Shown: positions 2,047 through 28,023 of the stretch, in pieces
Numbering within the stretch: the stretch's first letter is position 1
How the letters are laid out: every line of letters begins with the position of its first letter
DNA from: a virus
Reading direction: 5' to 3' (one strand)
Length of the DNA: 28,023 bases
IMG/VR virus record: IMGVR_UViG_3300010370_002556
Location: 1 to 28,023 of that record
The notes under the pieces: model-generated
The model's input: only the letters and a program-made list of their open reading frames with translations
What the model was told of the DNA's origin: nothing
The model's database searches: none
Made by a program: the position numbers and the translations under genes

Positions 2047-2054
2047 CATAAATA
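2047..2054 (+). promoter_or_regulatory. Late-promoter-like octamer CATAAATA, 5 bases before ATG
   Basis: CATAAATA matches 7 of 8 positions of the T4 late consensus. It sits just after the terminator and only 5 bases before the ATG at 2060, with no Shine-Dalgarno. If the octamer occupies -13 to -6 as in T4, the +1 base is the A of the ATG, predicting a leaderless mRNA. Confidence 0.6.
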
Positions 2055-2059
2055 TTAAT

Positions 2060-2548
2060 ATGCCTACTCCAGAAACAAACAATCCATTATTAATAAATTA
2101 TTTTGAATTTAGTTTAAATAGGATTCCAAATATAGTTTATTTTTGTCAGGCAGCAAATCTTCCAGGAATGAAATTTGGAGAAGTAGAACAACCAACAATT
2201 TTTAGTCATCCTATAAAAGTTCCTGTTGGTGCTGTTAGATTTGATCCTCTTGTTATAGGATTTAAAGTTGATGAAAATTTAAAAAATTGGTTAGAAATTC
2301 ATAATTGGATGAAAGATAATAGTAATTATTTTGAAACCGATATGAAAAATTCATACGAAAATCAAGCATCTGATGCAAATCTTTTAATAACAAACAGTTC
2401 ATATAAACCAAAAATAAAAGTGTCTTTTAGACGATTATTCCCTATAGAGCTTTCTCAGATTCAATTCAATACAATAACATCAGATGCTATGGAAGCTATA
2501 GCCACAGCTACTTTTACATTTACGGATTACAAAATAGAATACTTATAA
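2060..2548 (+). CDS. Tail-tube-fold protein, probably gp3-like tail completion / sheath stabiliser
   Basis: 162 aa. The ATG at 2060 (MPTPETNNPLL...) was chosen because an earlier in-frame ATG at 2006 would read through the terminator stem. The sequence resembles the T4 gp19/gp54 tail-tube superfamily: an N-terminal 'NYFEFSLNRIPN--YFCQAANLPGM' strand pair, a central 'PLVIGFKVDENLKNWLEIHNWM' block, and a C-terminal 'FRRLFPIELSQIQFNT---EAIATATFTFTDYKIEYL' block. Proteins of this family form hexameric rings in the tail tube or its end. In cyanophage-like T4 relatives the gene between gp23 and uvsY is annotated, as I recall, as gp3. I could not separate gp3 from a gp19-like tube paralogue by eye. 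Codon use is much more AT-rich than gp23. Confidence 0.72.
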   Translation: MPTPETNNPLLINYFEFSLNRIPNIVYFCQAANLPGMKFGEVEQPTIFSHPIKVPVGAVRFDPLVIGFKVDENLKNWLEIHNWMKDNSNYFETDMKNSYENQASDANLLITNSSYKPKIKVSFRRLFPIELSQIQFNTITSDAMEAIATATFTFTDYKIEYL

Positions 2549-2549
2549 C

Positions 2550-2577
2550 TTGAATATTTTAAATTTTGTTGTATAAT
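2550..2577 (+). promoter_or_regulatory. Sigma70-type promoter for uvsY, 6 bases before ATG
   Basis: TTGAAT (2550-2555), a 16-base spacer, then TATAAT (2572-2577), 6 bases before the uvsY ATG (2584). The -10 element is a perfect match and the -35 has 5 of 6 (TTGACA consensus). No Shine-Dalgarno lies between -10 and ATG. A start site 6-7 bases after the -10 falls on or beside the ATG. The promoter upstream of RNase H (9639-9666) has the same layout. The -35 overlaps the end of the upstream gene (stop ends 2548) by none of its bases. Confidence 0.75.
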
Positions 2578-2583
2578 ATAATT

Positions 2584-3018
2584 ATGACTTTTGACGAACT
2601 TAAAACAATGATTAAAGAAGATCTAAAGATTGACGAAACTGCTTTAGATCGTGAATCTGCAAATACACCACAGCTTCATAATAAATATCTTACATTTTTT
2701 ATGGACGAAAAACTTCGTTTAAAGAAATTAGAAAACGAACAAGCAGTTCTTCGTCGTAATAAATGGCTGTATTATACTGGTCGTATGAGTCAAGAAGAAC
2801 TGACTAATTTAGGTTGGGAACCTTTTGAGCTTAATGTACTCAAAACAGAAGCAGACGATTTAATTACATCTGATTCTGATTGGATTAAACTGGACGAACG
2901 AGTTGCGTTTCAGTCTGAAAAAGTTAATTATCTAGAAAATATAGTAAAAATTATCAATAATCGACAATGGCAAATTCGTGCTATGATAGATTGGTATAAA
3001 TTTACCCAAGGAGTTTAA
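2584..3018 (+). CDS. uvsY: UvsY recombination mediator
   Basis: 144 aa versus 137 in T4. UvsY helps load the UvsX recombinase onto gp32-coated single-stranded DNA during recombination-dependent replication. The N-terminus MTFDELKTMIKEDLKID aligns position for position with T4 MRLEDLQEELKKDVFID, and the 'KWLYYTGR' segment matches T4 'ARLDYYSGR'. The protein is helical and charged, and ends in a helix (IINNRQWQIRAMIDWYKFTQG). This alignment fixes the start at ATG 2584; an in-frame TTG at 2566 lies inside the promoter spacer and was rejected. The stop overlaps the uvsW start (TAATG, 1 base), as expected for coupled translation of partner genes. Confidence 0.9.
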   Translation: MTFDELKTMIKEDLKIDETALDRESANTPQLHNKYLTFFMDEKLRLKKLENEQAVLRRNKWLYYTGRMSQEELTNLGWEPFELNVLKTEADDLITSDSDWIKLDERVAFQSEKVNYLENIVKIINNRQWQIRAMIDWYKFTQGV

Positions 3019-4529
3019 TGGCCGACCTGACGATCACACAACCAGATTCTGTAATGATTAAAGTTGATTGTGATCGTTCCTTGGCCAAGGAACTCAACAG
3101 TTATTTTACGTTTAGTGTTCCCAACTTTCAATATACTCCTGCATTTAAAAAGAAACTTTGGGACGGCAAAATTCGTCTGTTTAATTTGTATACACAGACT
3201 ATATTTGCCGGTTTAACCGATCAAGTAATAAAATTTGCAAAAGATCGTGGATACACTTGGGAGTTATCTACTATTTCATACGATAAACCGGATCCTAAAG
3301 ATGTTAAAACATTTATAGACGGTTTAAGTATATCTGCTGGAGGTAAAGAGATTCGACCATACGATTACCAGATACAGGCCGTGCAACATGCCTTGGAGCA
3401 TTCTAGAGCCCTTCTAGTGTCTCCTACAGGTTCTGGTAAGTCTTTGATGATATATCTATTATGTCGTTGGATGTTAGATCAGAATCCAACAGGAAAATTA
3501 TTAATAATAGTTCCAACCACCAGTTTGGTAGCACAGATGTTAGCAGATTTTCGTGAATATTCTAAACACGATTCGTGGAGAGCAGATCGAAATATTCATA
3601 CAGTAATGTCTGGTAAAGATAAAACTTCTACCAAACGTATAATTATTTCTACTTGGCAGAGCATTTACAATCAGCCATACGATTATTTTGAAGATTTTAT
3701 TGGTGTATTTGGTGATGAATGTCATTTGTTTAAAGCTAAATCCCTTTCATCTATCATGAGTAAAGCCAAAAAAACCAAATATCGTATAGGTACAACAGGA
3801 ACACTTGATGGCACACAAACTCATAAACTAGTTATTGAAGGTTTATTTGGTCCTACGTATCATACCACTACCACTAAAAAACTTATAGATCAAGATCTAT
3901 TGTCTAATATTAACATTGACTGTCTACAGCTACAATACAGTCCAGAAGATATTGAAACAACTAAAAAAATGTTGTATGTGGACGAAATTCGTTGGGTTGT
4001 GAGTAATACCAGACGAAACACATTTATAAAAAATTTATGTAACAAATTAAATGGAAATACTCTAGTTCTTTTTAATTTTGTTGAATTGCAAGGAAAACCG
4101 CTTTATGAATTAATTAAATCAAGTTCTTCAAAACCTGTTTATTTTATTCATGGAGCTACAGAAGTAGATGAAAGAGAACAAATACGAAAAATTATGGATT
4201 CTGGATCAAATGCAACTCTTATTGCTTCGTATGGTACATGTTCTACAGGTATAAATATAAGAAACATTCATAATATTGTTTTTGCCTCACCTTCTAAATC
4301 GGTTATACGAATATTACAATCTATAGGGAGAGGATTACGAAAGAGTGAAACAAAAATTCAGATGAAATTGATTGATATAGCAGACGATCTGCGATACAAG
4401 AAACAAATCAATCACGGAATGAATCATCTGTATGAACGATTAAAAATATATACTAATGAAGGGTTTCCGTTTAAATTAGTGTCGGTGCAACTACCAAAGG
4501 AGTCCAATGAAACATTACAAAATAATTAA
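3018..4529 (+). CDS. uvsW: UvsW superfamily 2 DNA helicase
   Basis: 503 aa, matching T4 UvsW in size. UvsW unwinds branched DNA and R-loops and shuts off origin-dependent initiation in favour of recombination-dependent replication. The N-terminal ~110 residues are the UvsW DNA-binding domain ('FQYTPAFKKKLWDGKIRLFN'). Helicase motifs follow in order: Q-like 'PYDYQIQAVQHAL', Walker A SPTGSGKS (135-142), motif II DECH (233-236), motif III-like 'GTTGTLDG', and motif VI QSIGRGLRKS (from 434). All catalytic positions are present. Base composition changes within the gene: the first two thirds are richer in GC, the last third (after about 4020) is AT-rich. The 3' end overlaps the next gene by 23 bases, which contain that gene's start. 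Confidence 0.96.
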   Translation: MADLTITQPDSVMIKVDCDRSLAKELNSYFTFSVPNFQYTPAFKKKLWDGKIRLFNLYTQTIFAGLTDQVIKFAKDRGYTWELSTISYDKPDPKDVKTFIDGLSISAGGKEIRPYDYQIQAVQHALEHSRALLVSPTGSGKSLMIYLLCRWMLDQNPTGKLLIIVPTTSLVAQMLADFREYSKHDSWRADRNIHTVMSGKDKTSTKRIIISTWQSIYNQPYDYFEDFIGVFGDECHLFKAKSLSSIMSKAKKTKYRIGTTGTLDGTQTHKLVIEGLFGPTYHTTTTKKLIDQDLLSNINIDCLQLQYSPEDIETTKKMLYVDEIRWVVSNTRRNTFIKNLCNKLNGNTLVLFNFVELQGKPLYELIKSSSSKPVYFIHGATEVDEREQIRKIMDSGSNATLIASYGTCSTGINIRNIHNIVFASPSKSVIRILQSIGRGLRKSETKIQMKLIDIADDLRYKKQINHGMNHLYERLKIYTNEGFPFKLVSVQLPKESNETLQNN

Positions 4530-5205
4530 ATTAAAGTCTGGTGAAGATTTAATAGGTGCTGTTCGTTTATCAAAAGATGGTTCAATTAAAATTCACAGAC
4601 CTATGGTGTTTAAATCTATGGTAACTCAAGATTTGTTTGGTGGTATGCGTGAAGTGTTTATGCTTAAAGATTGGTTAATGTTGTCAGACACTAAAATAGC
4701 TGCGTTATCAAAAGAATCAATTAATACTATAATTCCAGCATCTAGTAATGCATCAAAATTATACGAGGCAGAAAAAAGAAAATTAGATACAAAACCAGAA
4801 AAACCAAAAAAACAATCTGGATTTCCTTTTGGATTTCCTCCGTTATCAGAAGGTATGTCGGATGAAGATCTAATCAACGATTTTAAGAAACATGTTGAGG
4901 ATATGATCGATTCGTCTATGAAAAACGATGAAATGGATTCTAACTTAAAAGATCTTGCAAAACCTCAAAAAGGTGATAAAATGGTGTTTATGAACCTTGT
5001 ATTCTCACCTGAAGTAATCGTACAACTTCTAAAGTCTGGCCTACTTGACCGAAAAGAATTAGGTGAGATGATCAATGAAATTACTAATGAAAATGGCGAA
5101 GGCATGAGCCCCGACAAGTACACTGGTAATGATAAAGATAAAAAGGATCTTGGAAACAGTTGGACTGATTGGCCATCAGATCCTAACTCAGAAGATTACA
5201 AATAA
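4507..5205 (+). CDS. Sm-like (LSm-fold) phage protein with C-terminal extension
   Basis: 232 aa. The first ~80 residues (KIIKLKSGEDLIGAVRLSKDG, then 'IKIHRPMVF' and 'DWLMLSDTKIAALSKESINTIIP') have the alternating-strand pattern of an Sm-like barrel: a 'LKSGEDLIG' Sm1-type strand pair followed by short strands. From memory, an Sm-like protein of putative cyanophage origin with this type of sequence has been crystallised. The rest is a Pro/Lys linker (about 97-110), an acidic helix ('EDLINDFKKHVEDMIDSS'), a hydrophobic strand-helix ('KMVFMNLVFSPEVIVQLLKSGLLD') and an acidic, Gly/Asp-rich tail. The start (AAGGAG then ATG) is inside the uvsW 3' end. Function is unknown; RNA binding or chaperoning is a family-based guess. 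It sits between uvsW and the late sigma factor. Confidence 0.7.
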   Translation: MKHYKIIKLKSGEDLIGAVRLSKDGSIKIHRPMVFKSMVTQDLFGGMREVFMLKDWLMLSDTKIAALSKESINTIIPASSNASKLYEAEKRKLDTKPEKPKKQSGFPFGFPPLSEGMSDEDLINDFKKHVEDMIDSSMKNDEMDSNLKDLAKPQKGDKMVFMNLVFSPEVIVQLLKSGLLDRKELGEMINEITNENGEGMSPDKYTGNDKDKKDLGNSWTDWPSDPNSEDYK

Positions 5206-5255
5206 CTTAATTCTTCTTTATTCCAGACAATATATTATAGCAGGAATTTTACATC

Positions 5256-5837
5256 ATGTCAAGTGGAAAGTCTAAAAAATCTAAAAAGATAAAAAGTGAA
5301 GACAATTTAAAACCAATATTACAAGAAGATCATTATATTAATAATAAAGAATTTCTTGCAGAAATGATCAAATGGAAAAAAGCAATACGTGAAGCCGAAG
5401 ATAGTGGAGATGATCCACCACCAGTTTCAGATTATATAGGAACATGTTTTCTTAAAATAGCAGAACGTCTTTCTTCTAAATCTAACTTTGTTAATTATCC
5501 GTATAAAGAAGAAATGATTGGTGATGGTATAGAAAATTGTTTGATGTATGCTCACAATTTTAATCCACGAAAATCTAAAAATCCTTTTTCTTATTTTACA
5601 CAGATAATATACTATGCATTCTTACGCCGAATAGAACGAGAAAAGAAACAGGCGTTTGTAAAATTAAAGATGACTGAAAACATGGATGATGGAACAATAC
5701 ATAAATGGTTTAGAGAAAATTATTTTGAAAAAGACACACCACGACAAGCACTTAGCGAATTGTTTCAAATTTCTGAACGTGATATTGAAAAATATGAACC
5801 AAAGAAACGTAAAAAGCGTACTAAAAAGAAATCATGA
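5256..5837 (+). CDS. 55: Late transcription sigma factor gp55
   Basis: 193 aa, similar to T4 gp55 (185 aa). It is a divergent sigma70-family subunit that directs host RNA polymerase to TATAAATA late promoters. The region-2-like core is clear: 'FVNYPYKEEMIGDGIENCLMYAHNFNP' followed by 'SKNPFSYFTQIIYYAFLRRIEREKKQ', which resembles T4 'KSKNPFAYITQFIYYAFIRRI'. There is no full region 4. The N-terminus is Lys/Ser-rich. The C-terminus contains 'ALSELFQIS', which might be a clamp-contact segment, and ends in a strongly basic tail (KKRKKRTKKKS). AGGA lies upstream of the ATG. The stop overlaps the gp47 start (ATGA). Its presence supports the late-promoter octamers called in this window. Confidence 0.93.
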   Translation: MSSGKSKKSKKIKSEDNLKPILQEDHYINNKEFLAEMIKWKKAIREAEDSGDDPPPVSDYIGTCFLKIAERLSSKSNFVNYPYKEEMIGDGIENCLMYAHNFNPRKSKNPFSYFTQIIYYAFLRRIEREKKQAFVKLKMTENMDDGTIHKWFRENYFEKDTPRQALSELFQISERDIEKYEPKKRKKRTKKKS

Positions 5838-6871
5838 AAATTGCAATTATTGGTGATACCCACTTTGGGGCACGAGGCGACTCTCCCCTATTCTTAAATC
5901 ATTTTCTTAAGTTTTTTGAAGAACAGTTTTTTCCGTATCTTAAAGAACACGGAATTACTAAAGTTCTTCATCTGGGCGATCTGTTTGATCGTCGTAAGTT
6001 TATTAATTTTAATACACTTCACCACACTAAAAAACGATTTATTGATTGGTTTGATGCTAATGGTGTAGAGCTACACTGTATTCTAGGAAACCACGATGTG
6101 TTCTATAAGAATACAAACAGACTAAACTCTCCCAAAGAAGTTCTAGCAGAATGCCACCAGTCATTTCATCTATACGAAGATGTACAAGAAGTATGTTTTA
6201 ATGGTGCAACTATTCTGATGGTTCCGTGGATCAACGAAGAAAACAAACAACAGTTTATGCAAAAGATCCAAGACACCAAAGCAACCATACTAGCAGGACA
6301 TTTAGAACTGTCGGGATACGAAGTTATGCCCGGGGTTAAATTTGCCGAAGGTATGGACGATAAGTTCTTAGAAAAATTTGATCTGGTTCTTTCCGGCCAT
6401 TTCCATAAGAAAAGTTCTAAAGGAAATGTACACTATCTGGGCACACAGTATCAGATGACTAGTATTGATACCCATGAAATAAAAGGATTTCATGTATTAG
6501 ATACCGAAACACGAGAACTACAGTTTATTCCCAACCATAATAAAATGTTTTATAATGTGGAATGGAGAAACGGTACTCTTATACAAGACTTTGATCCGTC
6601 AAAATATAAAGGAACTTACGTAAAGGTAATAGTTTACGAAAAAAATAGTGAAATAAAATTTGACCAATTCATAGATTCACTGTATGCTGTAGAACCAGCA
6701 AGTGTAAGTATCATTGAAGATCTTAGTGATAAAACTAAAGAAGAAACAGATATAGACGTATCTGAAGACACTCTTAGTATTATTAATAAAGAAATAGATG
6801 GTATGGAAGCGGACAATGCAGAAGAGTTAAAAAATATTGTTCGTGAAATCTATATGGAGAGTTTAGATTGA
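5834..6871 (+). CDS. 47: Recombination exonuclease subunit gp47 (Mre11/SbcD family)
   Basis: 345 aa, close to T4 gp47 (339 aa). It is the nuclease half of the gp46/gp47 complex that resects DNA ends for recombination and host DNA degradation. Calcineurin-type phosphoesterase motifs are all present: motif I GDTHFG (Asp8, His10), motif II GDLFDRR (Asp49), motif III GNHD (Asn86-His87-Asp88), motif IV GHLE (His156), and motif V GHFHK (His189, His191). The C-terminal ~120 residues form the capping/gp46-binding part. It overlaps gp55 by 4 bases (ATGA) and gp46 by 4 bases, so the three genes are probably translated as a coupled set. Confidence 0.96.
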   Translation: MKIAIIGDTHFGARGDSPLFLNHFLKFFEEQFFPYLKEHGITKVLHLGDLFDRRKFINFNTLHHTKKRFIDWFDANGVELHCILGNHDVFYKNTNRLNSPKEVLAECHQSFHLYEDVQEVCFNGATILMVPWINEENKQQFMQKIQDTKATILAGHLELSGYEVMPGVKFAEGMDDKFLEKFDLVLSGHFHKKSSKGNVHYLGTQYQMTSIDTHEIKGFHVLDTETRELQFIPNHNKMFYNVEWRNGTLIQDFDPSKYKGTYVKVIVYEKNSEIKFDQFIDSLYAVEPASVSIIEDLSDKTKEETDIDVSEDTLSIINKEIDGMEADNAEELKNIVREIYMESLD

Positions 6872-8592
6872 TAACATTTAAAGTTGTACGATTTAAAAAC
6901 TTTGGATCTTTTGGTAATACATTTACCGAAATCCAACTAGGAAAGAATGCAACCACATTAGTTTGTGGTTCTAATGGAAACGGTAAATCGTTTGCGTTTC
7001 TTGATTCTATTAGCTTTGCGTTATTTGGAAAGCCGTTTCGGAATATGAATATTCCACAACTAGTAAATAGCATCAATAAAAAGAACTGCGTAGTAGAACT
7101 AGAATTTACTATAGGAAAAACCGAATATAAAGTTGTTCGTGGTTTAGCTCCCAAAGTATTTAAGATATACAAAGATGGCGAACTTTTAAATGAAGACGCT
7201 AAAAGCAAAGACTACCAAAATATTTTAGAAGAGCAGATTGTGGGAATGAATCATAAAACATTTTCACAGGTTGTCGTACTAGGTTCATCTTCTTTTATTC
7301 CGTTCATGCAGCTAACACCAGCAGATCGTCGTACTGTAATTGAAAATATCTTAGATATTGGTATTTTTTCTGAGATGAATAGCATATTAAAAACTAAGAT
7401 TGGTGCTAGTAAAGGCAATCTACAAGCAGTAGATTCTGATCTAATTTTAGTAAATGAAAAGATTAGTGCAACCAAAGAGGTATTAGAATCGTACCAGCAA
7501 AATACGTCGGATCGTATGGCAGATCGTAAACGTACTCTAGAAGAAAATACAGACACAATCAAAAATATTTCCAAAGAAATTAAAACACTCCAGAAAGCAA
7601 TGAAAGAACTGGAAATAGAAATAGAACCAGGAGACCAGATTAATGCGGAACTTAAGAAACAGCAAATTGTCCTTTTCAAGCTCGAAAGCACCATTGAAAG
7701 CGTACAAGAAGATATCCAGTTCTTCCAAAAAAACCACAGTTGTCCAACTTGTAAGCAAACCATCAGTAAAGAACACAAAGAGACAGTCATTACCGAGAAG
7801 TCTGAGAAGGCCAAAGAACACAATCGCTCGTTGGAGCGCATAAAAGAAGCAATAAATATGTCTAAAAATAATCTGAACAAAATTACGTCTGTTCAGAATA
7901 AACTTAACGATTTGATTATCAAAGTTTCTGCTAAACAACAAACGGTAGAATCTCTGGTTAAACTAAACGAAAAACTAGACAAAGAAGTATTAGCAGTAGT
8001 TGAAACCACAGACTCACAATCAAAAATTCAAGAAGCACAAGACCGGCTTTCAGACCTATTGAGCAAACAAGGAAAACTCTTAGAAAAGAAACAAAAGATC
8101 TTAGACACACTTCGTTCATATGATAAACTGGTATTCTTGTTTAAAGACAATGGTATTAAAGCCAAGATTATAAAATATTATATTCCACTTATTAACAAGT
8201 ACGTAAACAAGTATCTTAATAGTATGGACTTCTATGCAAATTTTCATCTAGATGAGGAGTTTAATGAAGTAATTAAAAGTCGTCATCGTGATGAGTTCTG
8301 CTACGAATCATTTAGCGAAGGCGAAAAGATGAGAATCGATCTGGCACTGCTTCTGACATGGCGAGAAATCGCAAAGTTGAAGAACAGTGTCAATACTAAT
8401 CTGCTTATTCTGGACGAAGTATTTGACTCCAGTTTGGACAGTGGTGGAGTGGATGAGCTGATGAAGCTTCTATCTAGTTTTGGCACCCGAGCCAATGTGT
8501 TTGTGATCAGCCACAAAACTGATCAATTACTAGATAGATTTAATCACGTTATACAACTAGATAAGAAAAAGAACTTTAGTAGGATTGTATGA
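6868..8592 (+). CDS. 46: Recombination exonuclease subunit gp46 (Rad50/SbcC family), TTG start
   Basis: 574 aa, close to T4 gp46 (560 aa). It is the ATPase partner of gp47. Walker A GSNGNGKS (34-41), a long coiled coil split by a zinc hook CPTC (Cys292, Cys295), ABC signature FSEGEK (482-487), Walker B LLILDE (Asp516, Glu517) and an H-loop His549 (VISHKTD) are all intact. The start is TTG overlapping the gp47 stop (TTGA), with GGAGAG 7 bases upstream. The next in-frame ATG (about 7047) would remove Walker A, so the TTG start is required. The last ~100 codons are visibly richer in GC than the coiled-coil part. Confidence 0.96.
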   Translation: MITFKVVRFKNFGSFGNTFTEIQLGKNATTLVCGSNGNGKSFAFLDSISFALFGKPFRNMNIPQLVNSINKKNCVVELEFTIGKTEYKVVRGLAPKVFKIYKDGELLNEDAKSKDYQNILEEQIVGMNHKTFSQVVVLGSSSFIPFMQLTPADRRTVIENILDIGIFSEMNSILKTKIGASKGNLQAVDSDLILVNEKISATKEVLESYQQNTSDRMADRKRTLEENTDTIKNISKEIKTLQKAMKELEIEIEPGDQINAELKKQQIVLFKLESTIESVQEDIQFFQKNHSCPTCKQTISKEHKETVITEKSEKAKEHNRSLERIKEAINMSKNNLNKITSVQNKLNDLIIKVSAKQQTVESLVKLNEKLDKEVLAVVETTDSQSKIQEAQDRLSDLLSKQGKLLEKKQKILDTLRSYDKLVFLFKDNGIKAKIIKYYIPLINKYVNKYLNSMDFYANFHLDEEFNEVIKSRHRDEFCYESFSEGEKMRIDLALLLTWREIAKLKNSVNTNLLILDEVFDSSLDSGGVDELMKLLSSFGTRANVFVISHKTDQLLDRFNHVIQLDKKKNFSRIV

Positions 8593-10705: not shown

Positions 10706-11392
10706 ATGACTAAAGCGACAACAACAATTTCTAAGGACACCCTGAATATTCTTAAGAACTTCAGTGGTATTAACTCTAATCTGTACGTAAAGCCCGGATC
10801 TAAGCTGGTAACCATGTCTCCCACTAAGAACATTATGGCAGAGGTGGAAGTAGACGAGACGTTTGATACTGAATTTGGTATCTGGGATCTTAACAAGCTG
10901 CTGGGTGTAATTTCGCTGTTCCAAGATCCAGAAATGGCATTTGGAGACAAGCACATGACCATTACCGGTGCTCGTGGATCCACAGTAAAGTATTACTACT
11001 CTGATCCTAAGCTTCTATCGTATCCCACAAAGAGCATCAAGAAGGTTGATGCTGTGGTAGAGTTTGATCTCACCGCAGACGACTTCAAAGAACTACAGCG
11101 AGCAGCCGCAGTCCTTGGCAATCCAGATCTTTCGTTTGTTTCCATGAACGATACCGTTCTGGCTATTGTTCGTGATCTCAAGGATCCTACGTGTAACGTG
11201 TTTTCTTTAGAGGTTGGTGAAAATCCCGAAGGTGCAGACTTTTCATTTAACTTCAAGATGGAAAACATGAAAATGCTGGACGGTGACTACCATGTAGCCC
11301 TGTCCAAGAGTGTTATTGGACAGTTTACCCATGCTAGTCGTCCTCTTACCTATTGGGTAGCTATGGATGCTAGCAGCACCTATAAGGCATAA
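10706..11392 (+). CDS. 45: Sliding clamp gp45
   Basis: 228 aa, exactly the T4 gp45 length. The trimeric clamp tethers DNA polymerase to DNA and, in T4, also activates late transcription through gp55/gp33. Features of the family: N-terminal 'LSKDTLNILKNFSGINSNLYVKPGSKLVTMSP'-type segment (here starting ISKDTL), 'FGIWDLNKLLGVISLF', 'YYYSDPKLLSYPTKSIK', and the C-terminal 'YHVALSKSVIGQFTH---LTYWVAMDASSTYKA'. AAAGGA lies upstream of the ATG. One base separates its stop from the gp44 ATG. GC-richer codons (AAG, CTG, ACC) suggest high expression or a different codon history from its AT-rich neighbours. Confidence 0.96.
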   Translation: MTKATTTISKDTLNILKNFSGINSNLYVKPGSKLVTMSPTKNIMAEVEVDETFDTEFGIWDLNKLLGVISLFQDPEMAFGDKHMTITGARGSTVKYYYSDPKLLSYPTKSIKKVDAVVEFDLTADDFKELQRAAAVLGNPDLSFVSMNDTVLAIVRDLKDPTCNVFSLEVGENPEGADFSFNFKMENMKMLDGDYHVALSKSVIGQFTHASRPLTYWVAMDASSTYKA

Positions 11393-12353: not shown

Positions 12354-12736
12354 GTCCCTTTGATTTCCTAAATTCCATAAATCAGACAAAAATTTCACTT
12401 ATGGACGAAGATCCGGGGTGTGAACGAGAGTATAATCCGTTTCTGGCCAATCGCGGTCTTTCTTACTTTTCTGATACCATCTTTCTGGCCAACGAGATGA
12501 ACCGATTACCAGGATTGGGCAAAAAACTTCAGTATGACTTTCTTCGTGTATCTGTTCGAGCCCGTAAAAGGTATAGTAAATGGATTAAAGACGAATCCAA
12601 TGAACGCATAGAAGCCCTAAAGACCGTATACGGTTATTCACATACCAAGGCTAAACAAGCCATCCACCTTATTACAGAAGATAATTGGAAATTATTATTA
12701 GAATTAGCAAATCCGGATAAAAATAGATTTCCATAA
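12350..12736 (+). CDS. 62: Clamp loader small subunit gp62
   Basis: 128 aa, shorter than T4 gp62 (187 aa) but like the short form I recall from cyanophage-type T4 relatives. The region 'REYNPFLANRGLSYFSDTIFLANEMNRLPGLGKKLQYDFLRVSVRARKRYSKW' corresponds to the conserved gp62 segment (T4 'AVPRGKRYGKW'). It is the non-ATPase subunit of the clamp loader. It overlaps gp44 by 4 bases, which in T4 is also a translationally coupled pair. The first two thirds have gp44-like codon use and the last ~30 codons are AT-rich. Its stop codon lies inside the late-type octamer before regA. Confidence 0.88.
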   Translation: MSPFDFLNSINQTKISLMDEDPGCEREYNPFLANRGLSYFSDTIFLANEMNRLPGLGKKLQYDFLRVSVRARKRYSKWIKDESNERIEALKTVYGYSHTKAKQAIHLITEDNWKLLLELANPDKNRFP

Positions 12737-12739
12737 ATA
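12732..12739 (+). promoter_or_regulatory. Late-promoter-like octamer CATAAATA before regA
   Basis: CATAAATA overlaps the gp62 stop codon and lies 28 bases upstream of the regA ATG (12768). A TATAAT hexamer at 12744-12749 could be an alternative -10, but no matching -35 is seen 16-18 bases upstream. With this spacing a short untranslated leader would exist. Because a TAA stop followed by AT-rich sequence can create the octamer by chance, confidence is limited. Confidence 0.4.
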
Positions 12740-17835: not shown

Positions 17836-18741
17836 ATGAAAATTTTTAAACAAGACACAGATATAATACTTCAAGGACCCATATATAAAAATATTATTAA
17901 TGGTGTGGAAATTGATACATTAGATATTGCTAATGAATTTTCAAAAGCATGGTTTGTTAATAAGGTTATTGTATCTACTTGGATAGGAGAAACAATACCT
18001 AAAAAATATGAAAATAATAAAAAAATAGTAATAATACAGAGCGAAAAAATAACACCACATTATAATAATATGAATCTTCAATTAAAAAGTACCAAAGAGG
18101 GACTAAAATTATGTTCTTCTAAATACACTGTTAAGATGAGAAGTGATCAATATATATTTCCTAATTCATTAAATATGATGAAAGCATTTGTTGATTTTTA
18201 TATTAATGATAATATAATGTCTTATATAAACGGAAAAACACCAAAAGGGCATATTTTTGTCCATGGTATAGACGCAAATAATCCATATCTTGTTCAAGAC
18301 CATATTTTTTGGGGTTATACTGAAGATATGAACGAAGTATTTTCTTGTGATTATTTGGAACAATATATTTTAGATCTACCTCCAGCTGGAGACGATGGTT
18401 CTTATTATAAAGATAAATTAAATATGCCTTCTTGGATAGGTTTAAATTATATGAAAAAATTTGATACTAGAACCGAACATCACTTTAATAATCAATCTGA
18501 ATATTTGCATACAATTTCTTCTAAAAGAAATGATGCTATGACAGTTTATGCAGAAATACGTGATAAAATATTTAAAACATTTCCAAAAATTGATATGTTA
18601 TGGATAAAACGATATCCCATTGATGCTGGTCAATTTCCATATGCGATGTATATGATACAAAATCAATACTATTATGAAGAACAAGTAGAAAAAACAGAAT
18701 GCAAATTTAATCCACAAAAAGGATTTTCTAAATTTTTTTAA
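17836..18741 (+). CDS. WavE-family lipopolysaccharide-type glycosyltransferase
   Basis: 301 aa. 'DIILQGPIYKN' (QGP 13-15), 'NKVIVSTWIGE' (STW 47-49), 'NNMNLQLKSTKEGLKLCSSKYTVKMRSD' (up to 104) form the WavE pattern: QGP, then S-W, then N-QxxST--GL--A-xxYxxKxRSD. The family takes part in LPS core and O-antigen synthesis in bacteria, e.g. Vibrio. The C-terminal half (RTEHHFNNQSEYLHTISSKRN and 'MLWIKRYPIDAGQFPYAMY') is less familiar. It is not membrane-anchored. The stop codon TAA is part of the late-type octamer preceding the next gene. Confidence 0.78.
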   Translation: MKIFKQDTDIILQGPIYKNIINGVEIDTLDIANEFSKAWFVNKVIVSTWIGETIPKKYENNKKIVIIQSEKITPHYNNMNLQLKSTKEGLKLCSSKYTVKMRSDQYIFPNSLNMMKAFVDFYINDNIMSYINGKTPKGHIFVHGIDANNPYLVQDHIFWGYTEDMNEVFSCDYLEQYILDLPPAGDDGSYYKDKLNMPSWIGLNYMKKFDTRTEHHFNNQSEYLHTISSKRNDAMTVYAEIRDKIFKTFPKIDMLWIKRYPIDAGQFPYAMYMIQNQYYYEEQVEKTECKFNPQKGFSKFF

Positions 18742-18748
18742 ATAAATA
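18741..18748 (+). promoter_or_regulatory. Late-promoter-like octamer AATAAATA, 5 bases before ATG
   Basis: AATAAATA (7 of 8 to TATAAATA) starts at the last base of the upstream stop codon and ends 5 bases before the ATG at 18754. No Shine-Dalgarno is present; the region upstream is a T run. Same octamer-to-ATG gap as at 2047 and 24870. A chance match in AT-rich sequence is possible. Confidence 0.42.
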
Positions 18749-18753: not shown

Positions 18754-19458
18754 ATGAACAATCTACAATTATTTGCTGACGGAATAAAGCCCGATAAACA
18801 ATATATGGATACTATAATGGATTCCTACGGAATAGTAGGATATACTTGCAATCCAACATTAGTAAAACAATTTGTTCCGATGTCATATAAAGACTATTGC
18901 ACAAGTATAATAAAAAATTCTAGAAATTATTCTGTTTCTATACAAACATTATCTAGTAATTTAGAAGAAATATACCAACAGGCAAAAACAATAAGTTTGT
19001 GGGGAAATAATGTATATGTTAAAATTCCAGTAATAACAGAAAATAAACAAGACACTTCTGAGATTATAATAAAATTATTAGAAGAAGGAATAAAGATCAA
19101 CGTAACGTCTATTTTTACACCAGAACAAGTTGAAAGATTAATAAAAACTGGATTAAATAAGACTCATGATTGTATTTTATCTATTTTTTGTGGAAGAATT
19201 GCAGATACGGGATTAGTGCCAAATGACGTAATCTCTAAAATTAATGATAAATTACAAGAACGAGGAAATATTAAATTATTATGGGCAGGTAGTAGAAGTT
19301 CTTTAGATATACATTTTGCTGCACAATACTGTGATATAATAACTTTACCCCAAAGTATTATTGATAAATTAAAATTAAAAAGCAAATCTCTAGAAGAATA
19401 TACTCTAGAAACAGTAAAAATGTTTGCTAACGATAGTAAAATATTTACTTTAGATTAA
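18754..19458 (+). CDS. Transaldolase / fructose-6-phosphate aldolase family protein
   Basis: 234 aa, the size of the short TalC/FSA-type enzymes (about 220). 'LQLFADGIKPD' (Asp9), 'GYTCNPTLVKQF' (transaldolase TTNPxL block), 'YVKIPVI' with the Schiff-base lysine Lys90, 'INVTSIFTPEQV' and 'KLLWAGSRS' follow the family's order. Cyanophages carry talC to redirect host carbon flow, but here the gene is embedded in a glycan island and directly precedes a nucleotidyltransferase-phosphatase-kinase fusion. It may therefore make or cleave a keto-sugar phosphate that feeds nucleotide-sugar synthesis. That role is inference; an auxiliary metabolic role is the alternative. Confidence 0.82.
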   Translation: MNNLQLFADGIKPDKQYMDTIMDSYGIVGYTCNPTLVKQFVPMSYKDYCTSIIKNSRNYSVSIQTLSSNLEEIYQQAKTISLWGNNVYVKIPVITENKQDTSEIIIKLLEEGIKINVTSIFTPEQVERLIKTGLNKTHDCILSIFCGRIADTGLVPNDVISKINDKLQERGNIKLLWAGSRSSLDIHFAAQYCDIITLPQSIIDKLKLKSKSLEEYTLETVKMFANDSKIFTLD

Positions 19459-22009: not shown

Positions 22010-22010
22010 A

Positions 22011-22577
22011 ATGAATTCAAATATTAATAACAACCATGATGCATTTTCTAAAATTTTAAACGAAAATTTAGAAAAAATTAGTAGATTAAAAGATATAACT
22101 TCTGCAATTGAAGCAGGTACCTATCGTGGGGATAATGCTGTTAGATTAGCAACTATGTTTGAAGTTGTAGAAACAATAGAATTATATCCAGACTATAATC
22201 CATATGATGGCAAATCATTAAGAGAAGTTCACGAAAATATAAAAAAACAACATCCAAATATCAATTTTATATACGATAATAGTGTAAATGCTCTAAAAAC
22301 ATTACTAACTGATAATCCCGATACTTGTTATTTTATATTATTAGATGCACATACAGCAAATTATTCTCCTATGATTGACGAATTAAATGCTATAAAAACT
22401 TACAGCAAAAGAAATGATCATATAATAATGATTGATGATTGTAGATTTTTATCCAAAAATGGATTTTATACCGGTTATCCTACGTTTGAAGAAATGCAAA
22501 CAGCAATTTTAAATATCAATCCTAATTATGTGATAGAAAATACTAAAAAAGGAAATGATATTCATTTAATTTACTGA
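22011..22577 (+). CDS. Class I methyltransferase-like protein
   Basis: 188 aa from ATG 22011, one base after the previous stop; an earlier in-frame ATG (21975) lies inside the upstream gene and was rejected. 'TSAIEAGTYRGDNAVRLATMF' (EAGTYRG 34-40) is a SAM motif I, 'VVETIELYPDY' the acidic motif II, and 'YFILLDAHTANYSPMIDEL' (LDAH 111-114) with 'DHIIMIDDCR' gives the metal/acceptor pattern of small-molecule methyltransferases. With the genes at 17204 and 21374 it makes three Rossmann methyltransferase-like proteins in one island. Its stop codon lies in the GATAAATA octamer upstream of the epimerase. Confidence 0.66.
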   Translation: MNSNINNNHDAFSKILNENLEKISRLKDITSAIEAGTYRGDNAVRLATMFEVVETIELYPDYNPYDGKSLREVHENIKKQHPNINFIYDNSVNALKTLLTDNPDTCYFILLDAHTANYSPMIDELNAIKTYSKRNDHIIMIDDCRFLSKNGFYTGYPTFEEMQTAILNINPNYVIENTKKGNDIHLIY

Positions 22578-22583
22578 TAAATA
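22576..22583 (+). promoter_or_regulatory. Late-promoter-like octamer GATAAATA before the epimerase
   Basis: GATAAATA (7 of 8 to the late consensus) overlaps the upstream stop and lies 14 bases before the ATG at 22598. A Shine-Dalgarno (GAGGTGAT, from 22587) lies between the octamer and the ATG, so this gene has a conventional ribosome binding site, unlike the genes with 5-6-base spacing. Confidence 0.45.
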
Positions 22584-22597: not shown

Positions 22598-23608
22598 ATG
22601 AAAAATGCATTAGTATTAGGTGGCGGTGGATTTATTGGTTCTCATCTTGTAAAACGTTTAAAACAAGAGGGCTATTGGGTTCGTGTTGTTGATTTAAAAA
22701 TGCCAGAGTTTGCTCCAACGCAAGCAGATCATTTTATCGTTGGTGATTTAAGAAGCCAAAAAACATGTGATGATGCGTTTGCTCACCGTCAGTTTGACGA
22801 AGTGTATCAGCTTGCGGCAGATATGGGTGGAGCTGGGTACATTTTTACAGGAGAAAACGATGCAAATATCATGCACAATTCTGCCCTTATTAACCTCAAT
22901 ATAGTAGAACGGTGTCTAGCAAATAAAGTTGGAAAGGTGTTTTATTCTTCGTCGGCATGTATGTATCCTGCATACAATCAAGAAGATCCAGATAATCCTA
23001 AATGTTCAGAAGATTCTGCGTATCCTGCAGCACCAGACAGCGAATACGGTTGGGAGAAACTGTTTAGTGAAAGACTGTACCTAGCATTTGCTAGAAATTA
23101 TGGTATGAATGTTCGAGTTGCTCGTTACCATAATATTTTTGGCCCAGAAGGAACGTGGGATGGTGGAAAAGAAAAAGCACCAGCAGCTCTTTGTCGTAAA
23201 GTAGCTCAAGCAAAAAACGGAACACATATTGATGTGTGGGGAGACGGAAAACAAACCCGATCATTCTTGTACATAGATGAATGTATAGAAGCAACTCGTC
23301 GTTTAATGAATTCTGATTTTACTGGACCCGTAAATATCGGATCTGAAGAAATGATTACAATCAATGATCTAGCAAAAATGGTTATTAATATTTCCAAGAA
23401 AGATCTGTCTGTGAATAATATTGCTGGACCTGTGGGAGTTCGTGGTCGTAATTCAGATAATAAATTATATGCAGAGAAAATAGGATGGCAACCTTCACAA
23501 ACTTTATATGATGGTATACAAAAAACATACGCTTGGATAAAATCTAAAGTAGATCGAAAAAGCACATCTACTGCTGACCTAGATATGATAGATCGATTTG
23601 CTAATTAA
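22598..23608 (+). CDS. GDP-mannose 3,5-epimerase (extended SDR)
   Basis: 336 aa. The closest family I can recall is plant GDP-D-mannose 3,5-epimerase, which converts GDP-mannose to GDP-L-galactose (and GDP-L-gulose). Shared blocks: 'LAADMGGAGYI', 'YSSSACMYP', 'SEYGWEKLFSE', 'RYHNIFGPEGTWDGGKEKAPAALCRK', 'WGDGKQTRSFLYIDECIEATRRL', 'PVNIGSEEM' and 'GVRGRNSDN'. Counting from the start, the Arabidopsis catalytic residues Cys145, Tyr174, Lys178 and Lys217 correspond to Cys121, Tyr150, Lys154 and Lys193: a constant offset of 24. NAD-binding glycines are Gly8, Gly11 and Gly14. A Shine-Dalgarno (GAGGTGAT) fixes the start. Codon use is less AT-rich than in the rest of the island, hinting at a separate origin. 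The GT10-type enzyme at 13823 is a candidate user of the product. Confidence 0.88.
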   Translation: MKNALVLGGGGFIGSHLVKRLKQEGYWVRVVDLKMPEFAPTQADHFIVGDLRSQKTCDDAFAHRQFDEVYQLAADMGGAGYIFTGENDANIMHNSALINLNIVERCLANKVGKVFYSSSACMYPAYNQEDPDNPKCSEDSAYPAAPDSEYGWEKLFSERLYLAFARNYGMNVRVARYHNIFGPEGTWDGGKEKAPAALCRKVAQAKNGTHIDVWGDGKQTRSFLYIDECIEATRRLMNSDFTGPVNIGSEEMITINDLAKMVINISKKDLSVNNIAGPVGVRGRNSDNKLYAEKIGWQPSQTLYDGIQKTYAWIKSKVDRKSTSTADLDMIDRFAN

Positions 23609-24869: not shown

Positions 24870-24877
24870 CATAAATA
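24870..24877 (+). promoter_or_regulatory. Late-promoter-like octamer CATAAATA, 5 bases before ATG
   Basis: CATAAATA ends 5 bases before the ATG at 24883, the same gap as at 2047 and 18741, and no Shine-Dalgarno is present. The octamer is part of an imperfect palindrome (CCATAAAT / ATTTATGG, 24869-24886) that includes the start codon, which could also form a small hairpin. It lies in the 16-base gap between genes, outside any coding sequence. Confidence 0.55.
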
Positions 24878-24882: not shown

Positions 24883-25302
24883 ATGGCAGCAAAATACGAC
24901 CTTACAATAAATAAAGGCACTAATTTTAATCTTTTTTTACAGTATCTCGGAACTGCAGATAACGCAATAACTCTAGCTGGGTTTTGTGCTTCAATGCAAA
25001 TTCGAAGATATAAAGATGATGATTATCCTATAGTTTTTCTTACCGGTAGAGGAGTTACTTCTGGTTATACTGCAGGATATACTTCAGGATACACCGGAAT
25101 TGGTGGAATAAGTTTAGATAAAAATATAGATGGAACTGCATTAACTGGTGGTATTCATATAAAAATGGGTTGGGAAACCACATCCAGAATACCAGTAGGC
25201 CGTCATTTATATGATTTAGAATTATCCATAGGAAATACTTACGTTAATAGAATCCTTGAAGGAAGAGTAGACGTAAATGGAGAGGTGAATCGTGAAAATT
25301 AA
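24883..25302 (+). CDS. Virion structural hypothetical protein (fibre/baseplate-associated)
   Basis: 139 aa. The N-terminus 'AAKYDLTINKGTNFNLFLQYLGTADNAITLAGFCASMQIR' resembles small proteins that precede tail fibre genes in T4-like marine phages and the N-terminal domain of phage baseplate upper proteins ('G-T----i----d-tGyt-r-qiR'). It contains a short perfect-like peptide repeat 'GYTAGYTSGYTG' (residues about 64-75). The remainder alternates strands: 'GIHIKMGWETTSRIPVGRHLYDLELS' and 'VNRILEGRVDVNGEV'. The start is fixed by the lack of a later Met and by homology to the 'AxKYDLTI' start. It is the first gene of the fibre region. Confidence 0.7.
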   Translation: MAAKYDLTINKGTNFNLFLQYLGTADNAITLAGFCASMQIRRYKDDDYPIVFLTGRGVTSGYTAGYTSGYTGIGGISLDKNIDGTALTGGIHIKMGWETTSRIPVGRHLYDLELSIGNTYVNRILEGRVDVNGEVNREN

Positions 25303-25414: not shown

Positions 25415-25415
25415 A

Positions 25416-26513
25416 ATGAAAAAGTTTAGTGGTTATTTTAAATCTGAAGAACCTAAAACTGAAATTAAAGAAGAAATCAGTTTTCAAGCTATAGCAGGGC
25501 CACAAGGACCAGAAGGTCCACAAGGACCCCCTGGACCTCCTGGCCCACAGGGACCTCCTGGAGAGGATGGATGGGCAGGACCACAGGGACTACAAGGACC
25601 AAAAGGTCCTCAGGGGGAAATGGGTCCTCAAGGCCCTCAGGGGGAAATGGGGCCTCAAGGTCTCCAAGGAGAAATGGGTCCTCAAGGAGAAATTGGTTCT
25701 CAAGGAGAAATGGGTCCTCAAGGCCCTCAGGGGGAAATCGGTCCTAAAGGAGAAATGGGGCCTCAAGGTCCTCAAGGAGAAATGGGGCCTCAAGGTCCTC
25801 AAGGAGAAATGGGTCCTCAAGGCCCTCAGGGGGAAATGGGTCCTCAAGGTCCTCGGGGAGAAATGGGTCCTCAAGGTCCTCGGGGAGAAATGGGCCCCCA
25901 AGGAATAAAGGGTGTTCAGGGAGTAAAAGGAGAACGTGGTATACAGGGGCCTTTAGGGCCCAAAGGGGACAGAGGACTACAGGGACCAATAGGTCCAAGA
26001 GGAGAAAAGGGACCACAAGGTCCCAAAGGAGATAAGGGAGATCCTGGTCAATCTGGAGTAGCTTCTGTTAAATATCCTTTGGTTTTAGAGGAAGGAGAGT
26101 TGTCTTTTGATGTTGATAAAATACAATCAATACTTTCTAAACTAGTAAAATCTAAAGGAGATGCAGAACAACTAGCAAAAAATTATGGTTGGCTTAGAGA
26201 GTTCCCTACCGGTGGTTTGGTTGCTGGAGGAGGAGGTGCTGTTGGTATTTACAATGATGGTGCTCGTGTTATAAAATCCGTAAATGATATTAACTTTAAA
26301 GGCAATGGTGTTACAGTTACACGAAAAGGAAAACAGGTAGATGTAGAAATAAATACAACAAACACTCCAGAATCTCCACGTACTATAACTGCATTTTTTG
26401 TGTATACAACAACACCTCAAGATAATGGAGAAACTGTAATAAATGGAGACCGTTGGTACAACGAAGATATTGGAAAAGTATTTACTTGGGTCGGAGCATG
26501 GGTAGAATTTTAA
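25416..26513 (+). CDS. Collagen-like tail fibre / virion fibre protein
   Basis: 365 aa. A short N-terminal segment (1-27, [13 protein letters not shown]...) is followed by 62 uninterrupted Gly-X-Y triplets (residues 28-213), rich in GPQ, GPR and GEM, which should form a collagen triple helix. Then comes a trimer-domain-like region ('[28 protein letters not shown]', a Gly-rich '[17 protein letters not shown]', and a beta stretch '[24 protein letters not shown]'). The terminal module is [17 protein letters not shown], ending AWVEF. Such proteins are found as side or tail fibres in T4-like phages. The product probably forms a long, thin, flexible fibre for host contact. No Shine-Dalgarno is obvious just before the ATG. 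Confidence 0.85.
25497..26054 (+). repeat. Tandem Gly-X-Y coding repeat (62 triplets; nested 27-base units)
   Basis: The collagen-like part of the fibre gene. Within it, bases 25606-25892 are nearly perfect 27-base units coding GPQGPQGEM, with variants ([24 protein letters not shown]). The last third (after 25893) is more diverged. The high similarity of neighbouring units suggests recent slippage or unequal recombination and a fibre length that can vary. Open frames on the other strand here are by-products of the repeat. Confidence 0.9.
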
Positions 26514-26514
26514 A

Positions 26515-26522
26515 GATAAATA
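26515..26522 (+). promoter_or_regulatory. Late-promoter-like octamer GATAAATA, 6 bases before ATG
   Basis: GATAAATA lies in the 15-base gap after the collagen-like fibre gene, 6 bases before the ATG at 26529, with no Shine-Dalgarno. This is the fourth octamer at the 5-6-base spacing. Confidence 0.52.
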
Positions 26523-26528
26523 TCATAT

Positions 26529-28023
26529 ATGCCAATAGATTTTCCTAGTAGTCCTACTTCTGGTCAAACGTACACCTTTAACAATATTCTGTGGTCTTGG
26601 AATAACAGTGTAGGTGCATGGGAACGTGTTTTTAGTGGTGGTGCTACAGGTGCTACAGGACTGGGTTATACTGGAGCAACTGGTCCTACAGGAGCAACCG
26701 GTGCTACGGGACCACAAGGAAACACAGGAGCAACTGGTCCAGTTGGCGATTACGTTATATCATTCAACGGATACACTGGTGCAGTCACAGGCTGGGCATC
26801 GTATAATGATGGTGCAGAATCTGGACTAGACACTGACCTTATACGTGGAATCTCGGGGCAACGTTTTGTAGAAAATCTACAGAGTGGTCTGCTATACGGA
26901 GGTCTACTCACAGTAAATGTGGGTAATACTGCAACTTTTGATGTGACCGCTGGCCGTGGTATTATTGTTACGCCCGGTGGTTCCACTAGTGGTTATCCTA
27001 ATGCAGTGATCACCTACATTAACTGGGAGGCTCAAACCGGGCTAACCGTTGCTAATCTTGCAGCATACGAAAACACGTGGGTCAAGATAAATTCGTCAGG
27101 AAATATAGTTCAATCAACCACCAAATGGACAGACAGCGAATACGACAACTCTATTCCGTTGGGTGTATTGGTCCATCCCAATAACACTTCTATAAATTTT
27201 GCTGTAGCTGTACCACACATGGCATACGGTCAACCGTCACAGCTAGATCCGTTTGTTCGGGCGTTTGGTCCTATAAAGATTTCAGGACACGAAATCAGTG
27301 CTAACGGAGCCAATCTCCAAGTAAATAAAAGCACTGGTGCAGCGTACATGATTGGTCGAAACTACACCACCAATCCAGACAGTCCAAACGTGGTGGAAGA
27401 CACCAACGCAACTCCCATATCAACCGTATACCGTTATTACCGTGACGGAACCGGTAAATTTGCAGTCGTCACTAACTCATCTATAGATCCTACCAAATGG
27501 GATGACGGAACTGGAACACTAAATTCTGTAGCCGGTGGTCAGTACACCATACAACGTTTGTTCTTCTTGCCCGGTGTTCCTAACGTGATTGCTGCATACT
27601 ACGGGCGACAAACGTACAACTCTATTGAAACTGCACAAGCAAACATTCCGTTTGAAACGTTTAGCGAAGACGATTCCACTGCTAATTTGGGAGTGTTTGG
27701 TGGATACCTTATTGTTAAGAGTGGAACCACACAATTAAACAACACAAGCGACGCTAAATTTATTAACAGTGGTATATTTAGAAATCTGTCTAATATTGGT
27801 GGTGGTGGTGTGGCAGCAACCAGTATAGACGATCTAACAGACGTAACAATTACATCTGCCACAAACGGTCAAGTATTAAAGTATAACGGTAGTGCTTGGG
27901 TAAACGGTACTGCTGTAACTTCATTTAATGGACTAGTTGGAGCTGTGCAAGGAGTATCCGCTGCTGTGGCAGGTACAGGAATTTCCGTGAGTGGAGCCAC
28001 AGGATCTGTAACTATTACAAATA
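26529..28023 (+). CDS. Large tail fibre / adhesin protein, 5' part (runs off the window)
   Basis: At least 498 codons, open to the last base, with no stop. The N-terminus 'MPIDFPSSPTSGQTYTFNNILWSWNNSVGAWERV' is the 'FPxxPxxGQxYxxNxxxWxW---W' start seen in phage fibre proteins. Residues 38-73 are a short Gly-Ala-Thr-rich collagen-like stretch (GATGATG, GPTGATGATGPQG). Then come beta-rich domains and, near the end, 'TSIDDLTDVTITSATNGQVLKYNGSAWVN', a module typical of tail fibres, and two copies of an SFNGxxGAVxG motif (about residues 78-88 and 462-472). The amino acid composition (Gly, Ser, Thr, Asn) fits an extended trimer. Codon use is less AT-rich than in the island. It lies directly after the collagen-like fibre, and probably works with it. 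Confidence 0.85.
   Translation, partial: MPIDFPSSPTSGQTYTFNNILWSWNNSVGAWERVFSGGATGATGLGYTGATGPTGATGATGPQGNTGATGPVGDYVISFNGYTGAVTGWASYNDGAESGLDTDLIRGISGQRFVENLQSGLLYGGLLTVNVGNTATFDVTAGRGIIVTPGGSTSGYPNAVITYINWEAQTGLTVANLAAYENTWVKINSSGNIVQSTTKWTDSEYDNSIPLGVLVHPNNTSINFAVAVPHMAYGQPSQLDPFVRAFGPIKISGHEISANGANLQVNKSTGAAYMIGRNYTTNPDSPNVVEDTNATPISTVYRYYRDGTGKFAVVTNSSIDPTKWDDGTGTLNSVAGGQYTIQRLFFLPGVPNVIAAYYGRQTYNSIETAQANIPFETFSEDDSTANLGVFGGYLIVKSGTTQLNNTSDAKFINSGIFRNLSNIGGGGVAATSIDDLTDVTITSATNGQVLKYNGSAWVNGTAVTSFNGLVGAVQGVSAAVAGTGISVSGATGSVTITN

Follow-up and report, generated by a model that had tools for sequence, protein, structure and literature searches.

Late transcription in bacteriophage T4 is a textbook system, whose promoters, marked by the octamer TATAAATA, depend on the sigma factor gp55, the co-activator gp33 and the sliding clamp gp45. 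Leaderless phage messages are known from elsewhere, the lambda cI mRNA and the late transcripts of phiKZ being examples; these carry a 5'-terminal AUG and no Shine-Dalgarno (SD) sequence, and gp55-type late promoters are not known to produce them. The T4 octamer spans positions -13 to -6 (PMC1524935), and late promoters of the form NATAAATA are already known in the related cyanomyoviruses, such as S-PM2 and Syn9 (PMC2984593). In this study, we analyzed a 28,023-base virus record, IMG/VR IMGVR_UViG_3300010370_002556 (the window, that is, the whole stretch of DNA), which is a T4-like phage fragment carrying gp55, a gp45-like clamp and T4-type late octamers. These octamers are very probably gp55-type T4 late promoters in two position classes, one of which would give leaderless or near-leaderless mRNA with a 5'-terminal AUG and no SD, as in lambda cI and the phiKZ late messages, although here predicted from the sequence.

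Several published observations border on this subject. The paper on phage AR9 remarks that phage transcripts are often leaderless (PMC5312081), and Sullivan 2010 kept late promoters if they were intergenic or overlapped the upstream gene by at most 10 bp (PMC3037559). In the report on the methylophage Melnitz, 15 late promoters were counted, and the word 'leaderless' appears, in the portion available, only in a cited title (PMC9004378). A survey of pelagimyophages described late promoter prediction as unsuccessful in these genomes (PMC7029224), which the close-set placement reported below may explain. Our literature search, from which subscription papers fell mostly outside, found no paper on leaderless gp55-type late mRNA in T4-like phages, cyanophages or pelagiphages. 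The 5' ends of Syn9 transcripts were reportedly mapped by Doron in 2016.

The elements on which the argument turns are given below with their PHROG matches and E-values; the profile scan against PHROGs covered 20 window proteins, all encoded on the + strand.

481..488, +, leadered late octamer TATAAATA of gp23, gap 25, with the SD AAGGAG at 499-504
514..1986, +, gp23 major capsid protein, the leadered control (phrog_138, 4.7e-151)
2011..2040, +, predicted intrinsic terminator of the gp23 transcript, GGGGGGTCC stem and T run, directly 5' of the predicted gp3 late promoter
2047..2054, +, late octamer CATAAATA, 5 nucleotides (nt) before ATG 2060 (gp3), spacing kept in relatives
2060..2548, +, gp3-like tail completion protein, predicted leaderless mRNA (phrog_45, 'tail tube', 1.3e-30; tblastn matches annotated as tail completion)
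5256..5837, +, gp55 late sigma factor (phrog_234, 1.1e-55)
10706..11392, +, gp45-like sliding clamp, in T4 the late transcription activator (phrog_223, 1.7e-69)
12732..12739, +, octamer CATAAATA, 28 nt before the regA ATG, leadered class, no SD by the pattern used
ATG 12768, +, regA (phrog_242, 6.7e-53)
18741..18748, +, octamer AATAAATA, 5 nt before ATG 18754, weakest of the four close-set sites
18754..19458, +, transaldolase-like gene, possibly leaderless (phrog_440, 1.8e-17)
22576..22583, +, leadered octamer GATAAATA of the epimerase gene at 22598, gap 14, with GAGG at 22587-22590
24870..24877, +, late octamer CATAAATA, 5 nt before ATG 24883, spacing kept in homologues
24883..25302, +, gene with a weak match to tail-fibre assembly, predicted leaderless mRNA (phrog_1084, 2.4e-14; phrog_3304, 1.2e-8)
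26515..26522, +, late octamer GATAAATA, 6 nt before ATG 26529, gap 6 also in the relative G002
26529..28022, +, tail fibre gene running off the record, predicted leaderless or with a 1-nt leader (phrog_16641, 9.6e-16)

In the ordinary class the octamer lies at least 13 nt before the start codon and would leave a leader, usually with an SD, whereas the second, close-set class has it exactly 5 nt before the ATG or, less often, 4, 6 or 7. Because the T4 octamer occupies -13 to -6, the A of the ATG would become +1 when the gap is 5 nt, and this predicted start, six bases after the octamer, would be like that of T4 (PMC1524935, PMC2988020). RNA polymerase starting about six bases after the octamer would begin on the A of the AUG, and a close-set promoter would yield late mRNA that is leaderless (0 nt) or nearly so (1-2 nt) and whose translation would begin at the 5'-terminal AUG with no SD. 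It should be emphasized that we infer promoter function, the RNA 5' end and the mode of translation from DNA sequence. The arrangement resembles that of T4 in its octamer, its encoded gp55 and sliding clamp and its structural genes, but differs from T4 and RB49, in which no called gene has an octamer at gap 4-6, in that one promoter class abuts the start codon. A T4-like lineage infecting water bacteria, with isolates on the abundant ocean bacterium Pelagibacter among its members, appears to position the same promoter in such a way that the start codon becomes the transcription start.

Every coordinate given in an earlier note on this DNA for four octamers 5-6 nt before an ATG (2060, 18754, 24883 and 26529) was confirmed, and its leadered controls, gp23 with AAGGAG at gap 25 and the epimerase gene with GAGG at gap 14, are as it described them. 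Its caveat that two octamers share bases with stop codons stands for one close-set site only, that at 18741, which takes in the last base of the upstream stop codon (TAA 18739-18741); the second overlap belongs to the leadered octamer at 22576. Octamers of the NATAAATA type lie 5' of late genes (gp23, gp3 and tail fibre), and both the gp55 sigma factor and the sliding clamp are phage-encoded. No gp33 co-activator was found among the 20 proteins scanned, the record being a fragment of 28 kb; Melnitz and HTVC008M have an annotated late coactivator or late promoter factor. The number of ATAAATA heptamers in the window is not raised (18 on both strands against 20.1 expected), so the claim rests on position rather than number. 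Of the 31 called genes, 4 have the heptamer at gap 4-6 before the ATG, while 20 permuted heptamers average 0.35; for the window alone this is thin evidence of a position effect. The mechanical open reading frame (ORF) of the gp3-like gene opens at ATG 2006, and we take 2060 as the true start because the stretch 2006-2060 holds the gp23 terminator hairpin. As candidate close-set promoters, we would grade the sites at 2060 and 24883 as strong, that at 26529 as moderate and that at 18754 as weak.

The octamers might be chance matches, or by-products of A+T-rich spacers, of TAA overlap and of the shared descent of one gp3 region. The lack of an overall octamer excess in the window and the stop-codon overlap at 18741 would fit this explanation, as would the way the first sample was gathered. 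In that sample, ORFs called in the window and in 118 related loci fetched by gp3 and gp55, 44 of 152 ATAAATA placements within 40 nt fell at gap 5, against a permutation mean of 2.0, but gp3 was over-sampled, accounting for 36 of the 65 close-set genes at gap 4-7. Therefore, whole or nearly whole records of 17 relatives and 12 named phages were read and genes were counted by family. The pooled set of the window, its relatives and three isolates (the Pelagibacter phages HTVC008M and Mosig and the methylophage Melnitz) holds 2484 genes, of which 78, belonging to 32 families, have ATAAATA at a gap of exactly 5 nt from an in-frame ATG, while none of 20 permuted heptamers exceeded 12 genes or 5 families at that gap. 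Removing the gp3 family leaves 74 genes from 39 families at gap 4-6, and 52 of these are at gap 5 (both motif forms, de-duplicated at 90%). In a motif-free search of the 7-mers whose last base is 5 nt ahead of the first ATG, ATAAATA was found 61 times against 5.1 expected from other offsets, and it appears in the top list beside Shine-Dalgarno words and one more word, GAATTTT; in the T4/cyanophage set it falls outside the top list at the same offset. The excess thus survives both family collapsing and the removal of gp3, it is absent at gap 4-6 from T4, RB49, Syn9, S-PM2 and S-CRM01 by the same method, and the spacing is kept while spacer letters change. The pattern belongs to the lineage and is not due to chance: the earlier note had said that a lack of octamer excess at 5-6 nt over controls would count against its proposal, and an excess was found. 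Chance is therefore a very improbable explanation, disfavoured for the close-set class and remaining for the 18754 site alone. The other word, GAATTTT, ends 5 nt before the ATG 20 times against 0.97 expected and is found at 5244-5250 before the gp55 gene of the window; its enrichment may reflect one conserved gp55 start region.

A second concern is that start codons are misassigned and that the true starts lie further downstream behind an SD. A simple ORF caller was used, and some gp3 starts were indeed wrongly placed; yet an SD-bearing in-frame start was found within 50 codons downstream in 3 of 109 close-set genes and upstream in none. The alignable N-termini begin at these ATGs, and the called sites coincide with GenBank starts in 11 of 11 cases in HTVC008M and 3 of 3 in Melnitz, which leaves this explanation scarcely credible. 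In HTVC008M, the nine raw ATAAATAN5ATG matches (9/9) also fall on starts annotated by others. The in-frame start-like triplet at gap 5 is ATG in 89 cases, GTG in 2, ATT in 1, ATC in 1 and TTG in 0, matching the AUG start of leaderless genes. Like leaderless genes, the close-set class also has neither an SD nor an alternative SD-bearing start as a rule, SD-like sequences preceding 5 of 109 close-set against 151 of 214 leadered genes. The close-set placement offers a simple rule, octamer plus 5 nt plus ATG, for fixing start codons in such genomes.

The position of the start can be approached through promoters of the leadered class in these phages. Counting from the octamer, the sixth base is a purine in 169 of 214 leadered promoters of the window lineage and the pelagi- and methylophages (the window lineage taken without the isolates gives 77% of 170), and in 198 of 239 of those in T4, RB49, cyanophages and two single-cell marine viruses. 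It is the most purine-rich of the 12 positions that follow the octamer, and C is lowest there (3% and 1% in the two sets). In close-set genes with gap 5 the sixth base is the A of the ATG, so that the +1 proposed in the earlier note would agree with the purine peak of the leadered promoters. The preceding base is a pyrimidine, T or C, in 30 of the 33 representatives of close-set families (purine 3/33); a purine occupies the same place in 113 of 214 leadered promoters (p=1e-6 against close-set), and the -1 base is a purine in 903 of 1893 genes (p=3.8e-6). The scarcity of purines at -1 may reflect avoidance of an earlier start, by which the RNA would begin with AUG. At the gap-6 site (26529), the message would have a 1-nt leader, or initiation would occur one base later.

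It may be asked whether the close-set elements are instead host sigma-70 -10 boxes, in which case the mRNA would be leaderless but not late. TATAAA does resemble a -10 box, and several close-set genes are not structural. Among 40 family representatives (the longest member of each close-set family, PHROG threshold E 1e-6), 13 match structural, packaging or DNA-end-protector families and 9 have named matches of another kind, such as metabolic, helicase, nuclease or regulator families; of the rest, 3 fall in families of unknown function and 15 are without a match. The 13 structural, packaging or DNA-end proteins argue against host promoters, as does the identity of the heptamer with that of the leadered gp23 promoters. 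A -35 box, scored as agreement with TTGACA in 5 or 6 of 6 letters at a distance of 16-18 nt, was found before 6 of the 109 close-set octamers, compared with 1-5 in six shifted controls, which is no clear excess, and none of the best 60 of 90 sigma-70-like sites in positions 1-20000 overlaps the octamer at 2047 or 18741. We regard the sigma-70 explanation as quite improbable and the gp55-type promoter as the better account.

The contrast between gp3 and gp23 in the window is repeated in relatives. An octamer lies within 60 nt of gp23 in 26 of 55 homologues, always at 13-60 nt and none nearer, with an SD in 25 of the 26, whereas 33 of 74 gp3 homologues carry the standard octamer at gap 4-6, and none of these 33 has an SD. 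The order at gp3 of the window is gp23, a strong hairpin with a T run, the octamer, 5 nt and the ATG, and the fold of 2000-2075 reaches -29.3 kcal/mol (z -5.08). A hairpin precedes the octamer in all 19 gp3 regions chosen of 36, the order being kept while stem letters differ; the gap in these regions is 5 in 14, 4 in four and 6 in one. Of 35 close-set gp3 genes, 34 have a perfect-stem terminator ahead of them. Among gp3 homologues lacking the standard octamer, some have a CTACATA/ATACATA variant at 4-5 nt and some have misassigned starts. The variant, with its gap still 4-5, occurs in loci L013, L014, L016, L096, L097, L098, L103, L107, L149, L154, L157 and L158, a sub-lineage which suggests that gp55 and its promoter co-diverged. 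Leadered forms of gp3 are found in L021 and L023, where GATAAATA is 14-15 nt away and accompanied by AGAGGT or AGGAG. In Melnitz-3 (L161, 129067-129096), ATAAATAGTAGTATG is kept 5' of gp3 and the annotated start lies 17 nt further, in another frame and behind AAAGGG, as though a formerly leaderless start had become part of a leader. Natural pairs of leadered and predicted leaderless late genes, presumably served by one sigma factor in one cell, could be used to test the purpose of leaderless translation.

These regions also bear on the possibility that the A+T-rich octamer is no promoter and acts as a translation signal at the RNA level (an S1-type enhancer or unstructured start region) in longer read-through mRNAs. 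In many bacteria, initiation is favoured by A+T-rich sequence around the start. In keeping with read-through, 34 of 109 close-set genes begin 0-15 nt after a same-strand gene, and for 72 of 109 no terminator-like hairpin lies immediately upstream. However, a terminator-like hairpin does precede gp3 copies, and the enrichment at gap 5 holds for this heptamer and not for its 20 permutations. In addition, the offset between octamer and ATG equals the start-site offset deduced from leadered promoters, and a translation signal gives no obvious reason for the avoidance of purines at -1. The divergent gp2 and gp4 genes of HTVC008M share a gap of 26 bp between their start codons in which each has its own gap-5 octamer; there is no room for a leader there if the promoter is not placed within the neighbouring gene. 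We give the translation-signal explanation little weight, and consider a promoter set against the start codon much the more probable.

Conservation differs from site to site; it is seen at 2060 and 24883, in part at 26529, and at 18754 in a single relative with another gap. A direct search of viral_contigs and phages yielded no homologue of the 24883 gene; homologues were found after whole records had been read. Six of nine, including the window, have the standard octamer at gap 5 with differing spacer letters, and the other three have one-letter heptamer variants at 4-6 nt; the protein is 42% identical to its homologue in G018. For the 26529 gene, gap 6 recurs in the close relative G002 (78% identity over the N-terminus), while of the other two N-terminal homologues G006 has no octamer and P-SSM2 is leadered (gap 20). 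In a looser family of 11 close-set fibre genes the gap is 6 in eight, 5 in two and 4 in one. The direct search for the 18754 gene gave one relative (37-38% identity), whose octamer is at gap 7. UvsW is close-set in 15 of 75 homologues, and UvsW of the window has an ordinary SD instead.

The mixture of leadered and close-set, predicted leaderless, late genes that the earlier note pointed out is present across the lineage. Per-record counts are given as called genes at gap 4-6 / octamers at 13-40, in both motif forms:

HTVC008M 11/6; Mosig 6/20; Melnitz-3 3/20; window 4/4
G003 10/19; G009 7/14; G018 8/15; G020 5/9; G023 4/4
G002 3/6; G007 3/7; G017 3/4; G006 2/3; G012 2/11; G014 2/8
G001 1/3; G010 1/5; G011 1/5; G015 1/6; G022 1/4; G021 0/7
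T4 0/24; RB49 0/20; Syn9 0/22; S-PM2 0/27; S-CRM01 0/42
P-SSM2 2/43; P-HM2 2/20; AG-345-F15 1/29; AG-345-O18 2/18

Pooled and de-duplicated, there are 109 close-set and 214 leadered cases, against 7 and 239 in the second set of T4, RB49, cyanophages and two single-cell marine viruses (Fisher p 8e-23, the genes not being independent). All seven close-set genes of the second set are at gap exactly 5, and a few leaderless late genes may exist there too. The cyanomyoviruses are related phages with the same motif, but S-PM2, Syn9 and S-CRM01 have none at gap 4-6, and P-SSM2 and P-HM2 have two each beside 43 and 20 octamers at 13-40. The pelagimyophages and methylophages, in contrast, have the same close-set promoters as the window, with 11, 6 and 3 called genes at gap 5 in HTVC008M, Mosig and Melnitz; in HTVC008M none is at 4 or 6. 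The gap-5 genes of HTVC008M are those at 6280, 7562, 11972, 16007-, 18916-, 18943, 19456, 31132, 49760, 75830 and 142360, and its genes at 36520, 46310 and 72211 have a distant octamer. The raw pattern ATAAATAN5ATG occurs 9, 8 and 4 times in the whole records of HTVC008M, Mosig and Melnitz-3. In a gp23 tree of 37 sequences, two clades show the close-set trait. One is the window lineage, with 22 taxa and a support of 0.887; the other, HTVC008M+Mosig+Melnitz (0.987), joins (0.958) cyanophages in which close-set octamers are few or absent. Either one gain with losses or two gains would account for this history.

Several observations weigh against two classes of gp55-type late promoter. The missing SD in the close-set class is largely forced by the place of the octamer and is not independent evidence, and gaps of 7, 8, 9 and 10 are also found (15, 5, 8 and 6 genes after de-duplication), which would give leaders of 2-5 nt. 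The permuted heptamers do not equalise every dinucleotide, and start codons come from a simple ORF caller except where they were compared with GenBank. Only 37 of the 109 close-set octamers follow a terminator-like hairpin, almost all of these at gp3, and 25 of 74 gp3 homologues have no standard octamer within 60 nt. The raw ATAAATAN5ATG pattern is also found in P-HM2 (4), P-SSM2 (3) and T4, RB49, S-PM2 and S-CRM01 (2 each), making the raw-pattern contrast smaller; only gene context separates the phage sets. Finally, single records of the window lineage often have no significant excess over permutations (e.g., G002, G006, G011, G015, G021 and G022).

It is tempting to see a regulatory code in the two classes, by which a promoter shift of a few bases would assign a late gene to SD-dependent or to leaderless translation, and ribosomal protein S21 of HTVC008M, Mosig and Melnitz might favour leaderless late messages over those of the host; at present, we find this idea doubtful. 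S21 genes lie at 91237-91392 in HTVC008M (W04), 35461-35619 in Melnitz-3 (W05) and 9983-10132 in Mosig (W06). S21 was found in 3 of 30 records tested, which are the three close-set isolates, and in 0 of 10 window-lineage records, which may be incomplete. As a general cause of close-set promoters, S21 is unsupported by these ten records, and on this evidence it would not be needed in general.

Further genes of the window encode UvsY, UvsW, SbcD/SbcC-like subunits (gp47/gp46 type), an exonuclease and clamp loader subunits, and no tRNA genes were found in it. Among the matches listed, the best GenBank match by coverage x identity is Synechococcus phage S-BM3 for gp23 (54.9%) and Melnitz-3 for gp55 (57.1%); besides these listed matches, four GenBank records for gp23 and six for gp55 reach 60-80% identity over some stretch. 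As to the host, a gp55 search of genome_contigs found no relative. The nearer relatives of the window are IMG/VR contigs. Between regA and the tail fibre genes, positions 13178-23608 form a long block resembling sugar, methyltransferase and epimerase genes, in which a transaldolase and a nucleotide-sugar epimerase were identified. Tail fibre genes occupy the 3' end of the window, and one of them, at 25416-26513, encodes a tail fibre protein with collagen-like Gly-x-y repeats.

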